Of a stretch of 64,000 nt of DNA, positions 31,219 to 36,816 are shown piece by piece. This DNA comes from Hydrogenophaga sp. PAMC20947 (GTDB taxonomy: Bacteria > Pseudomonadota > Gammaproteobacteria > Burkholderiales > Burkholderiaceae_C). The stretch lies in NCBI RefSeq assembly GCF_004795855.1, contig NZ_CP039252.1, positions 3,906,001 through 3,970,000 of the forward strand, given 5' to 3'. The translations under genes and the position numbers were made by a program. Each line of letters begins with the position of its first letter. Position 1 is the first letter of the stretch. The notes beneath the pieces are model-generated. The model was given only the letters and a program-made list of their open reading frames with translations, ran no database searches and was not told the origin of the DNA.

Positions 31219-32022
31219 ATGAGGGTCAAAGTCCTGGGCTGCTCCGGCGCGATCGCGCAAGGCTGCCGCACCACCTCTTTTTTGCTGGACGACGATGTTT
31301 TGATCGACGCCGGCACCGGCGTGGGCGATCTGAGCCTGGCGGAAATGGCGCGCATCAACCATGTGCTGCTCACCCATTCCCACCTGGACCATGTCGCCAG
31401 CCTCCCGCTCATGCTCGATGCCGTGGCCGCCTTGCGCCTGGCCGCGAAAGCACCGCCCCTGCAGGTCCATGCCCTGCCCGGCACCATAGCGGCCTTGCGG
31501 GTACACATCTTCAACAACCTGATCTGGCCCGACTTCGCCGCCATCCCCAGCGCCGAAGCGCCCTTGATGCGCTTTGTGCCCCTTGCTGAAGGCGAAGTGC
31601 TGGACGTGGGCGGTAAATCCATTGAAGTCTTGCCCGCCGTGCACACCGTGCCAGCCGTGGGTTACGCCGCTGCGTCCCCTACAGGCTACTGGGTCTTCAG
31701 CGGCGACACCGAGCGCAACCCGGCCTTCTGGCGCCGGGTCAACCAGCTGCAAGTGGCCATGCTCATCATCGAGACCGCCTTCAGCGACCGTGAGAAAGAC
31801 CTGGCCCACCGCAGCCTGCACCTGGCCCCCAGTGTGCTGGCCTCAGAGCTCGACCAGATCCGCAGCGATCAGCGCTACCCCATCTACATCACCCACACCA
31901 AGCCGGCTGAGACTGGACTGATCATGGAAGAGATTCAGCGCTTCGACGAGCTGCCCAGCCGGGATGGTGGTGTGCGCCACGATATCCGTTGGCTGAGCGC
32001 GGGGCAGACGTTTGATCTGTGA
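31219..32022 (+). CDS. MBL-fold 3',5'-cyclic-nucleotide phosphodiesterase (class II-like)
   Basis: 267 residues. The metallo-beta-lactamase fold shows LLTHSHLDHVASLPLM (metal ligands), VHTVPAVGY, SGDTERNPAFW and ITHTKP. The sequence resembles class II cAMP phosphodiesterases (CpdP type). Placed 67 bases after the cyclase, it would degrade that enzyme's product. Its last 40 codons recur three times, slightly diverged, in the downstream pilin array. Confidence 0.82.
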   Translation: MRVKVLGCSGAIAQGCRTTSFLLDDDVLIDAGTGVGDLSLAEMARINHVLLTHSHLDHVASLPLMLDAVAALRLAAKAPPLQVHALPGTIAALRVHIFNNLIWPDFAAIPSAEAPLMRFVPLAEGEVLDVGGKSIEVLPAVHTVPAVGYAAASPTGYWVFSGDTERNPAFWRRVNQLQVAMLIIETAFSDREKDLAHRSLHLAPSVLASELDQIRSDQRYPIYITHTKPAETGLIMEEIQRFDELPSRDGGVRHDIRWLSAGQTFDL

Positions 32023-32078
32023 TGGAAGGGCAGGTGAGGGGGTGGTGGTGCGACAGGGCTGGTTCACCGCTTGAAACA

Positions 32079-32099
32079 CGGTGACAAAAAACGTCACCG
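32079..32099. promoter_or_regulatory. Upstream palindrome of pilin copy 1
   Basis: CGGTGAC-N7-GTCACCG, a perfect 7-bp dyad, lies 83 bases upstream of the sigma-54 promoter. A further TGTCACC half-site follows. This is a fitting position for a PilR-type enhancer-binding protein. It is repeated at 33117-33137 and 34161-34181. Confidence 0.5.
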
Positions 32100-32181
32100 C
32101 CTATGGAGCCCAGGCCGCACAAATTGTCACCTGGTGGGCCCCAACCGTGAAATAGCGCAAGAAAACCCCGTCATTTCTAGT

Positions 32182-32197
32182 TGGCACGGTCCCTGCT
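32182..32197 (+). promoter_or_regulatory. Sigma-54 promoter, pilin copy 1
   Basis: TGGCACGGTCCCTGCT has GG and GC exactly ten bases apart, the -24/-12 signature. Confidence 0.88.
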
Positions 32198-32259
32198 AAA
32201 TGCGATCCGTCTTTTAACCATCGTGGTTTTTGTTCCACCCTCAGTCAAGGAGTTTTCTC

Positions 32260-32679
32260 ATGAAGCGCAAATTGCAACAAGGTTTCACCCTCATCGAATT
32301 GATGATCGTGGTGGCCATCATCGGTATTCTGGCTGCTGTGGCTCTGCCCGCTTACCAGGACTACACCGTGCGTGCTCGCGTGTCTGAATCGTTGGTTGCC
32401 GCTTCCGCTGCCAAAATTGCTGTAGCTGAAAATGCCGCCAACGGGCAAGCCCTTGCATCGGGCTGGATCGCTCCTGCAGCGACGCCCAACCTGGCCAGCG
32501 CTGCGATTGCCGCTGATGGTGTGATCACCGTGACGACCACGGCTCGCGCAGGTGGTGGAACGGTTACCTTTGTACCAGATCCAGTGCTGGTTGCTGGCAC
32601 CATCCCAACCGATCGCATCGGTTGGACCTGTACCGGTGGCACATTGGTCGCGAAGTACCGCCCTGCTGCGTGCCGTTAA
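32260..32679 (+). CDS. pilA: Type IV pilin, copy 1
   Basis: 139 residues. The leader MKRKLQQG is followed by the prepilin peptidase site and the mature N-terminus [20 protein letters not shown] with Glu5. A C-terminal disulfide loop ([15 protein letters not shown]) closes the protein. It forms the type IV pilus fibre. This copy differs from the other three in its leader (MKRKLQQG instead of [11 protein letters not shown]) and in [12 protein letters not shown] instead of [19 protein letters not shown] lies upstream of ATG 32260; a longer frame from 32230 has no site. It may be the ancestral or most diverged copy. Confidence 0.95.
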
Positions 32680-32727
32680 TACGCTTCCGAAATCCCACGG
32701 GGTGCAACGCACCTTAGGGACTAGCCG

Positions 32728-32764
32728 AAAAGCCAACCACTTGTGAAAGCGGTTGGCTTTTGTT
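32728..32764 (+). terminator. Terminator of pilin copy 1
   Basis: AAAAGCCAACC pairs with GGTTGGCTTTT around a 12-base loop and is followed by a T-rich run. Confidence 0.8.
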
Positions 32765-32848
32765 TCTTCGTATTCTGAAAAGTTGGCAAACTTGTTGGTT
32801 TGAGGAATGCAAAAATCGAGGTCTTCGCCTGAATCTCGAAGGGAATCT

Positions 32849-32962
32849 ATGCCCCGGCCTCTTGCACTGTGCTGTCCTGATTTCAAGTCTGCACCCTCTC
32901 GCGCTCGTTTTGCAGGGCGTTGGGCCTTGGCCCATCTGGGCGTCAGCCAGAGCCCGGGCTGA
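32849..32962 (+). pseudogene. Truncated 5' fragment of the tfpZ-like gene, copy 1
   Basis: The first 33 codons match the intact tfpZ-like start (MPRPLALCCPDFKSAPSRAR...), then the frame enters phosphodiesterase DNA and stops at 32962 after 37 residues. The upstream GAAGGGA site is retained, so a short peptide could still be made. Confidence 0.75.
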
Positions 32963-33063
32963 TCATGGAGGAGACCCAGCGCTTTGACGAGCTGCCCAGC
33001 CGGGGCGGTGGTGCGCGCCACGATGTCCGTTGGCTGAGCGCGGGGCAGACGTTTGATCTGTGA
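32947..33063 (+). pseudogene. 3' fragment of the phosphodiesterase gene, copy 1
   Basis: 38 codons match the end of the intact gene (GLIMEETQRFDELPSR...SAGQTFDL) but with several substitutions (EETQ for EEIQ, GGGARHDV for DGGVRHDI), so the copy is not simply a recent duplicate of the intact 3' end. Confidence 0.75.
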
Positions 33064-35125: not shown

Positions 35126-35151
35126 GCGCGGGGCAGACGTTTGATCTGTGA
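35035..35151 (+). pseudogene. 3' fragment of the phosphodiesterase gene, copy 3
   Basis: This remnant is a mosaic: its first part follows the other two remnants (EETQRF) and its second part the intact gene (DGGVRHDIRW). That suggests gene conversion within the array. Confidence 0.75.
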
Positions 35152-35206
35152 TGGGTGTGCCGGTTTAGGGGTGGTGCGACGGGGCTGGTTCACCGATTGA
35201 AACACG

Positions 35207-35252
35207 GTGACAATTATTGTCACAAAGCCCTAAGGTGACGAAAAACGTCACC
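35207..35252. promoter_or_regulatory. Doubled upstream palindrome of pilin copy 4
   Basis: Copy 4 alone has an extra dyad GTGACAATTATTGTCAC (35207-35223) followed by GGTGAC-N7-GTCACC (35234-35252). It may bind an additional activator dimer. Confidence 0.5.
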
Positions 35253-35335
35253 GCTTACCGCCATCAGACTGCACAAAATGTCACCTGATGGGCCCCAACC
35301 GTGAAATAGCGCAAGAAAAACCGCCTATTTCACGC

Positions 35336-35351
35336 TGGCACGGTCCCTGCT
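35336..35351 (+). promoter_or_regulatory. Sigma-54 promoter, pilin copy 4
   Basis: Same TGGCACGGTCCCTGCT element as the other copies. Confidence 0.88.
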
Positions 35352-35411
35352 GAGTAAACCCCGTCTTCCACTCATCGTGGTTTTTGTTCCCCCCATTCAA
35401 GGAGTTTTCTC

Positions 35412-35840
35412 ATGAATCGTTCTATGCAAAAAATGCAAAAGGGTTTTACCCTCATCGAATTGATGATCGTGGTGGCCATCATCGGTATTCTGGCTGCTGT
35501 GGCTCTGCCCGCTTACCAGGACTACACCGTGCGTGCTCGCGTGTCTGAATCGTTGGTTGCCGCTTCCGCTGCCAAAATTGCTGTAGCTGAAAACGCCGCC
35601 AACGGGCAAACCCTTGCGTCGGGTTGGGTTGCACCTTCAGCCACTCCTAATATGACATCTGCTGCGATTGCCGCTGATGGTGTGATCACCGTGACGACCA
35701 CGGCTCGCGCAGGTGGTGGAACGGTTACCTTTGTACCAGATCCAGTGCTGGTTGCTGGCACCATCCCAACCGATCGCATCGGTTGGACCTGTACCGGTGG
35801 CACATTGGTCGCGAAGTACCGCCCTGCTGCGTGCCGTTAA
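35412..35840 (+). CDS. pilA: Type IV pilin, copy 4
   Basis: 142 residues, as copy 3 but GQTLASG instead of GQALASG. It is the copy adjacent to the only full-length tfpZ-like gene, so the ancestral pilin-accessory pairing survives here. Confidence 0.95.
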
Positions 35841-35888
35841 TACGCTTCCGAAATCCCACGGGGTGCAACGCACCTTAGGGACTAGCCG

Positions 35889-35925
35889 AAAAGCCAACCA
35901 CTTGTGAAAGCGGTTGGCTTTTGTT
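35889..35925 (+). terminator. Terminator of pilin copy 4
   Basis: Same hairpin as the other copies, lying between the pilin and the tfpZ-like gene; the accessory gene would be expressed by read-through or from its own promoter. Confidence 0.75.
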
Positions 35926-36009
35926 TCTTCGTATTCTGAAAAGTTGGCAAACTTGTTGGTTTGAGGAATGCAAAAATCGAGGTCTTCGCCTGAATCTCGA
36001 AGGGAATCT

Positions 36010-36816
36010 ATGCCCCGGCCTCCTGCACTGTGCTGTCCTGATTTCAAGTCTGCACCCTCTCGCGCTCGTTTTGCAGGGCGTTGGGCCTTGGCCCATCTGG
36101 GTGTCAGCCTTGTGGTGGTTTCGCTGGCTGTTTGGTGTGTACTCACGTTATGGTATCCCCGCCCTTGGCGAACCATGCTGGGGATTGCCGGCATTCTGTT
36201 GATTCTTCTAGTAGTGGACGTGGTTTGTGGACCTTTGTTGACCTTGGTGCTGGCCAGCCCAAAAAAATCCAGACGAGAGCGCTGGGTTGACCTTTCGGTG
36301 GTCGCGATGGTGCAAGTGATAGCGCTGGCATACGGACTGACTTCGGTGTTTGATGCGCGTCCTGTGGTGCTGGCATTTGAGACGGATCGGTTGCTCATAG
36401 TGACCGCCAATGAGGTTCAGCTTGAGCGGCTGACTGCTGCGCCAGAAGGCTACCGCTCATTGCCCTTTGTAGGCCTGAATATGGTGGGCGTAAGACAAGC
36501 CCGTTCGACTGAGGAAGCGATGCAGAGTGCTGAGAGTTCGCTGCAAGGCGTATCGCCGGGAATGCGGCCGGACTGGTGGCTCCCTGTTGATGCGGTTGTT
36601 CCTGCGTTGCTGCTCAAAGTACGCCCGATTGATGATTTGATCGCCGCGCGGCCCACTGACCGCAAAATTCTGGAATAGGCGGTGCAGGCGACCGGACAAT
36701 CCAGCAAAAGCTTGCGATTTTTACCTTTGACGTCGAGCAAACAACTGGACTGGGTCGCGCTTGTGAACGCCCGGGGTGAAATGGTCGGCTACGCGCCGGT
36801 GGACGGCTTCTTTTGA
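36010..36816 (+). pseudogene. TfpX/TfpZ-like type IV pilin accessory protein, interrupted by an in-frame amber codon
   Basis: The frame from ATG 36010 (GAAGGGA upstream) encodes 222 residues, then TAG at 36676-36678, then 45 more sense codons in the same frame to TGA 36814-36816. Two N-terminal membrane helices and the segments IDVVCGPLLT-like, LVLASPKKS, VIALAYGLTSVFDARPVVLAFETDR are typical of TfpX/TfpZ proteins, which modulate assembly of the neighbouring pilin. The part after TAG (LPLTSSKQLDWVALVNARGE) looks like the family's normal C-terminus. So this is either a recent nonsense mutation, a truncated but active protein, or a read-through product. Confidence 0.7.

Follow-up and report, generated by a model that had tools for sequence, protein, structure and literature searches.

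Why would a bacterium keep four nearly identical pilin genes in a row, separated by fragments of the genes on either side? A locus of Hydrogenophaga sp. PAMC20947 raises this question; we analyzed it within a window of 64,000 nt (positions 3,906,001 to 3,970,000 of contig NZ_CP039252.1), and all coordinates given below are positions within that window. The genome is a single contig of 4,850,867 bp. Repeat analysis of the window delimits four direct, head-to-tail units between 31909 and approximately 36104, each about 1 kb long and 92–98% identical to one another, which excludes chance similarity. The answer we favor, with somewhat better than even confidence, is that a single duplication was followed by unequal crossing-over and gene conversion, probably giving the cell more of one pilin.

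Four pilin units and three joints

A unit opens with the last 37 codons of a phosphodiesterase-like (PDE) gene; a promoter region, a complete pilin gene, and a terminator come next, and it closes with the first 33 codons of a tfpZ-like pilin accessory gene (tfpZ below). Unit 1 starts inside an intact PDE gene (31219–32022) and unit 4 continues into a longer tfpZ frame (36010 onwards), while the three internal boundaries are tfpZ-to-PDE joints. Start-to-start spacings are 1044, 1044, and 1073 bp, the last being longer mainly because of an extra 28 bp in unit 4.

Four intact pilins in a row had been proposed in a preliminary description of this DNA, and all four open reading frames (ORFs) are present on the forward strand: copy 1 (32260–32679; 139 aa, leader MKRKLQQ) and copies 2, 3, and 4 (33295–33723, 34339–34767, and 35412–35840; 142 aa each). 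They are 96–99% identical to one another (copies 3 and 4 are each 99% identical to copy 2), and the mature pilins differ at 1–5 of 131 positions, in keeping with the few residue differences described earlier; an N at mature position 99 distinguishes copy 2 and a T at position 56 copy 4. The Pfam scan, which covered copies 1 and 2, placed both above the curated cut-offs for PF00114 (52.1 and 50.6 bits; cut-off 22) and PF07963 (40.9 and 41.5 bits; cut-off 21.2), and together with the prepilin motif GFTLIEL this assigns them to the type IVa major pilin family. No fifth close copy was found in the genome (E ≤ 0.001), where the next-best pilin-type matches outside the array are 33–53% identical over 36–100 residues. 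From the conserved locus and the absence of another close pilin, we infer that the array encodes the main pilus subunit.

Every copy also has its own regulatory elements, as the preliminary description had stated. The -24/-12 (sigma-54) promoter-like element TGGCACGGTCCCTGC precedes all four pilins on the forward strand (32182–32196, 33219–33233, 34263–34277, and 35336–35350). Upstream of it lies a palindrome, GGTGAC-N7-GTCACC, at 32080–32098, 33118–33136, and 34162–34180; copy 4 has two (35206–35252), since the 28-bp segment unique to unit 4 carries an additional one. The same 34-nt terminator hairpin with a T-rich run follows each pilin (32728–32769, 33772–33813, 34816–34857, and, between pilin 4 and tfpZ, 35889–35930, all on the forward strand), with RNA folding z-scores of -3.1 to -4.1; a simple terminator scan listed none of the four.

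For comparison, 40 loci were fetched, 38 from the genus and two from other families; some rows contained no hit or ran off their contig. A strict -24/-12 pattern lies upstream of the first pilin in 31 of the 38 genus loci. Among the remaining seven, a looser pattern fits three, neither pattern fits another three, and the last locus is truncated before reaching the promoter. Genes for RpoN (sigma-54) and PilB are present in the PAMC20947 genome, and a sigma-70 scan returned one site versus 2.1 expected. With GG at -24 and GC at -12 before each pilin gene and sigma-54 encoded in the genome, the elements are predicted to act as sigma-54-dependent pilA promoters. The GTGAC-N-GTCAC palindrome precedes only three of the 38 first pilins (in one, G005, with the letters of copies 1–3) and is therefore not a general feature of the genus; the palindromes are candidate PilR sites only.

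The joints, mapped with tblastn, record how the units were put together. On the forward strand, joint 1 (32849–33063) consists of tfpZ codons 1–33 at 32849–32947 followed by PDE residues 231–267 and the stop codon at 32950–33063; joints 2 (33893–34107; tfpZ at 33893–33991, PDE tail at 33994–34107) and 3 (34937–35151; 34937–35035 and 35038–35151) have the same structure. In each, the tfpZ part terminates in GTCAGCC and PDE-like sequence restarts 1–2 bases later, which leaves at most a few bases of homology at the crossover; by comparison with relatives, we read this homology as GCC. Because the three joints are alike, one founding event probably made them. The tfpZ-start/PDE-end fusions of the preliminary description thus exist as junctions and not as in-frame fusions: chimeric proteins can be ruled out, as reading from tfpZ through the joints gives ORFs of only 37, 37, and 62 codons.

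The PDE remnants look like dead, drifted sequence. Those of joints 1 and 2 read DVRW instead of DIRW, and in all three a T replaces a hydrophobic I, L, or V; neither change occurs in 37 intact PDEs of relatives. Such decay implies that the array is not fresh, a point missing from the preliminary description. Import of the remnants from a foreign PDE is less likely, since the motif QRFDELPSR is common to the remnants and the host PDE and absent from the 37 other intact PDEs.

Probable gene conversion and the copy-1 loop block

Divergence is unevenly distributed along the units, which the preliminary description did not note. Over 1026 gap-free aligned columns, unit pairs differ at 22–82 sites, and the promoter region of unit 1 differs from those of the other units at 40–41 of 231 sites (up to 18% in 5′ parts). 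In contrast, the pilin C-terminal part, terminator, and spacer (343 sites) show no differences among units 1, 3, and 4, and unit 2 differs at five. The longest exact repeats are 415 bp (units 3 and 4) and 362 bp (unit 1 with unit 3 and with unit 4, comprising the pilin C-terminal part, terminator, and spacer), and in all six unit pairs the longest run of agreement exceeds that obtained by shuffling polymorphic sites (p from 1e-4 to 0.01, uncorrected). That the non-coding terminator and spacer are more alike than promoter-region DNA cannot be explained by selection on protein but can be explained by gene conversion. The mosaic thus supports the conversion suspected earlier and indicates that it acted among units mainly in their 3′ halves. 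Concerted evolution in prokaryotes is the subject of PMC6053082.

RecA-type exchange requires only a few tens of bases. The 415- and 362-bp repeats would be ample for it, making it plausible that the array can expand and contract by recombination. The tfpZ remnant of unit 3 (34937–35035) differs from the other three tfpZ starts at 7–8 of 100 sites, while those three mutually differ at 1–2; it alone seems to have escaped homogenization.

The coding sequences appear constrained. Proportions of synonymous differences (pS) between pilin copies are 0.036–0.144 and of nonsynonymous differences (pN) 0.007–0.025, with pN < pS in all six pairs, supporting purifying selection on the copies. Together with conversion, this argues against a diversifying antigen system and agrees with the earlier judgement that antigenic variety is the less likely explanation.

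The preliminary description had also pointed to residues that differ in copy 1. These are concentrated in a sharply bounded 45-bp block (mature codons 59–73), in which synonymous divergence from the other copies is 0.72–0.80, versus 0.06–0.10 upstream and 0.00–0.02 downstream. Eighteen of the 19 differences between copies 1 and 4 fall inside 67 bp, clustering that was equaled in none of 2000 random placements; both the block and the 67-bp width were chosen after viewing the alignment, and the block holds only about 12 synonymous sites. Within it there are four amino-acid differences (pN 0.185; pN/pS about 0.25). A structure model of copy 2 places the changed residues after the long helix (14–63) and before the first strand (81–86), or at the start of that strand. 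The most fitting interpretation of the block is a short recombination tract that involved a diverged pilin, so that recombination reached the loop, which goes beyond the earlier reading; as the amino-acid change is modest, it would represent a constrained tract rather than selected variety. G+C content at third codon positions (GC3) is 73% in the copy-1 block and 27–33% in copies 2–4, but as a sign of import into copies 2–4 the low value is weak, other windows of the same pilins being equally low.

The interrupted accessory gene and the locus in relatives

Downstream of the fourth terminator is a TfpX/TfpZ-like pilin accessory gene (36010–36678, forward strand) of 222 codons that ends at an in-frame TAG, a stop not mentioned in the preliminary description. 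The profile NF041437 matches this ORF over positions 3–194 with 169.1 bits (E = 1.3e-49), short of the curated cut-off (200); when the search tool reads through the TAG, the score becomes 191.2, also below 200. No other sequence in the genome matches the profile. Past the TAG, a conserved continuation stays open for 45 codons plus TGA (36679–36816, forward strand), matching NF041437 positions 203–240 weakly (E = 0.032) and aligning with the C-terminus of 21 homologues. The Pfam scan gave no match for the ORF and did not report PF27166, which the best 119 other homologues (50–71% identical) carry as a precomputed annotation; 105 of these 119 are 254–270 aa long. Although the profile cut-off was not reached, the gene is homologous to this family and sits after the terminator of a pilin; we therefore call its product TfpZ-like only. 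The protein collection includes, from this contig, a 167-aa gene call whose last residue is that of the 222-codon ORF.

In a model of the 71%-identical homologue P0122 (mean predicted local distance difference test score 88.8), the stop corresponds to residue 212 in the alignment, and the last three strands (225–251) all come after it. The C-terminal beta-sheet is accordingly predicted to lie past the TAG and so to be absent from the shortened TfpZ. PMC11841053 describes models of TfpY-like proteins with a C-terminal three-stranded sheet, which TfpX of Pseudomonas aeruginosa Pa5196 naturally lacks; in the same work, P. aeruginosa tfpY mutants have fewer surface pili, the stoichiometry of accessory protein to pilin matters, and raised cyclic AMP (cAMP) with more type IV pilus components restores twitching. 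If all four units are expressed, the ratio of pilin to TfpZ would be shifted here.

The left border of the array is the intact PDE gene (31219–32022, forward strand), which encodes a 267-aa metallo-beta-lactamase-fold hydrolase resembling class II cAMP phosphodiesterases. It matches PF12706 above the cut-off (50.3 bits) and PF02112 with 43.6 bits (cut-off 23.7), the best stretch covering only profile positions 82–147 of 340; none of the NCBIfam equivalogs reached its cut-off. The gene is present in 37 of the 38 genus loci and in neither of the two loci from other families.

Genus loci share a gene order of Ser/Thr kinase, PP2C, FHA, CHASE2-cyclase (20 of 38), PDE, one or two pilins, a tfpZ-like gene (30 of 38; in some loci about 2 kb further down), moaC, and an M48 protease. 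This is the arrangement of PAMC20947 without the joints: the 37 loci with a PDE have one full copy, with an additional PDE-tail remnant in just one of them. Upstream of the array (24650–31151) is the corresponding signaling cluster of a CHASE2-Ser/Thr kinase, PP2C phosphatase, FHA protein, and CHASE2-adenylate/guanylate cyclase, syntenic with the pilin locus in genus loci.

Among 67 genus genomes (this one included), 53 have a pilin match (E ≤ 1e-12); many of the 14 without a match are incomplete. Two or three matches occur in 19 of the 66 other genomes and four in none, with the third match (G026, G052) or the second (G043) located on another contig. Comparison covered 15 two-pilin genus loci (four further two-match genomes were left out), whose pilins are 52–85% identical, versus 96–99% in the array. 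A family sample comprised 150 genomes including this one; 97 gave a match (E ≤ 1e-18), and apart from the present genome one (G176) has three pilins close together and none has four. The best pilin relative outside the genus is 81% identical (a metagenome-assembled genome labelled Aquimonas), compared to at most 70% within it, and GC3 is 52–58% for the pilin and tfpZ genes versus 81% for the PDE gene; the pilin-tfpZ cassette was likely acquired.

Near-identical tandem pilins are found elsewhere: four in G061/L158 (89–98%), three in L039 (one pair 100%), two in L043 (100%), and two in G081/L178 (98%). The present array is thus a further case of a known kind, likewise head-to-tail and kept similar, but those arrays have shorter periods (about 620–810 bp) and shorter repeated parts. 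What makes it notable, judging from its sequence, is the repetition of whole units with marked joints and the interrupted accessory gene. Among the papers listed by searches of an open-access collection, most subscription papers not being covered, we noticed none on tandem near-identical pilins with joint remnants.

Several observations concern the borders of this locus in relatives. L176 (G049; 4340–5368) has an insertion of about 900 bp between PDE and pilin, which on the reverse strand resembles a HipA-type toxin-antitoxin fragment (a label from reading the sequence), followed by a frameshifted duplicate PDE tail, 88% identical; this is a second PDE-tail remnant at this border, without the same kind of pilin duplication. 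L156 (G014; 8191–9179) has an ORF pair, which we take to be AbrB-like and Doc-like, between tfpZ and moaC, along with a duplicated moaC tail (92.6% identical). In L141 (G017; 5274–5941), antitoxin-like and PIN-like ORFs (labels likewise from reading the sequence) lie between PDE and pilin. These cases suggest that toxin-antitoxin modules settle at the borders of the pilin locus, two of the three with a tail copy of the neighboring gene. Elsewhere in the window (41272–41804), an 84-bp unit is repeated in tandem 6.3 times with 98% matches, and its repeated-peptide ORF is open on both strands.

Origin and likely effect of the array

The scenario we favor would begin with a pilin-tfpZ cassette at the conserved chromosomal locus (PDE, pilin, tfpZ, moaC). 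A single duplication with at most a few bases of homology would have joined tfpZ codon ~33 to PDE codon ~231; RecA-type unequal crossing-over, suggested by the shared joint, would then have raised the copy number to four. Conversion among units would act chiefly to homogenize the 3′ halves, leaving joints and 5′ regions to drift, and in one lineage the loop tract would have come from a diverged pilin; here the mosaic itself is observed, and the process and donor are conjectural. Each unit would be a complete sigma-54-type transcription unit for nearly the same pilin, and the likely effect, a dosage effect, would be more pilin relative to the single shortened TfpZ.

Known systems resemble parts of this scenario. 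In bacteria, tandem duplication at short junctions can lead to gene-dosage amplification, and as there, one junction is repeated here between direct repeats; unlike there, the joints are old and decayed and the array is not a fresh, unstable one. Neisseria pilE/pilS undergoes gene conversion and likewise has short recombination tracts in a pilin surface loop, but here we saw no silent promoterless stores and little amino-acid variation: all four copies are full ORFs with promoter elements, and no further close copies occur in the genome (E ≤ 0.001). The pilA-tfpX/tfpY/tfpZ cassettes of P. aeruginosa also consist of a pilin, a terminator, and an accessory gene, the terminator being proposed to attenuate the accessory gene (PMC11841053); the present locus instead has four pilins ahead of a single accessory gene, and the TAG interrupts that gene.

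Some results weigh against our account. The copy-1 loop block means that the array has gained differences as well as lost them, and a search of the fetched loci outside this genome turned up no donor for it; there, the best matches to the blocks of copies 1, 2, and 3 share 38, 35, and 36 of 54 bases. Promoter regions differ and copy 4 has its second palindrome, so the copies may be regulated apart rather than additively. Nor does outgroup comparison mark either unit 1 or units 2–4 as ancestral. At sites separating the two, matches to unit 1, units 2–4, and neither number 13/14/13 in G005, 13/15/9 in G053, 12/19/12 in G014, and 13/10/14 in G024; copy 1 as the unchanged ancestor is unsupported. 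In the 5′ part, the two groups lie at roughly the same distance from the outgroups.

An assembly artefact is almost certainly not the explanation and was rejected: the genome is complete in a single contig, and units differing at 22–82 of 1026 sites are unlike a false duplication of one unit. We consider neutral tandem duplication rather unlikely. The array would then have arisen by chance and been homogenized because repeats recombine, the extra copies having no selected role, as the frequency of extra pilins in the genus (19 of 66 genomes) and the tolerance of decayed joints might suggest. If the surplus copies were neutral, some would be expected to be broken, like the PDE and tfpZ remnants; instead, no pilin ORF, promoter element, or terminator is disrupted in any of the four units and pN < pS in six of six pairs, although conversion could mask decay of copies. 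Storage of alternative surface-loop versions, exchanged by short-tract conversion, for example against pilus-specific phages, is a very remote prospect. The position of the changed residues near the first strand fits it, as do the high synonymous divergence of the copy-1 block (0.72–0.80 vs. 0.00–0.10 in the flanks) and its clustering (0/2000), but four copies hold only two loop versions with four amino-acid differences and a pN/pS of about 0.25, and there are no partial silent copies, with a promoter element at every copy.

The interrupted accessory gene raises a further alternative, that extra pilin genes are kept to offset poor pilus assembly by the shortened TfpZ. We regard this as improbable. 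The only tfpZ-like gene of the genome has the in-frame TAG, with the last three strands of the P0122 model past it, and the P. aeruginosa findings on tfpY mutants, stoichiometry, and restored twitching point the same way (PMC11841053); that study raised type IV pilus components as a whole, not pilin dose alone, and the short form may work, given that Pa5196 TfpX naturally lacks the same sheet. Moreover, conservation persists in the tail past the TAG whereas the joints have decayed; the stop could therefore postdate the array, and the TAG may be a sequencing error. The more specific proposal, that the array is a natural dosage suppressor, its raised copy number kept by conversion and offsetting a TfpZ without its C-terminal sheet while diverged loop segments can move into a single unit and leave the remainder of its pilin unaltered, is similarly speculative and doubtful. 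If it is true, pilin amount replaces accessory-assisted assembly.

Duplication, crossing-over, and conversion remain our preferred reading. In a single array one can then see the two forces to which duplicates are subject, with useless joint sequence decaying and functional genes being homogenized, and the shared joint marks the first duplication event. The pairing of the array with a single shortened accessory gene makes the role of TfpZ-like proteins, and dosage as their replacement, directly testable.

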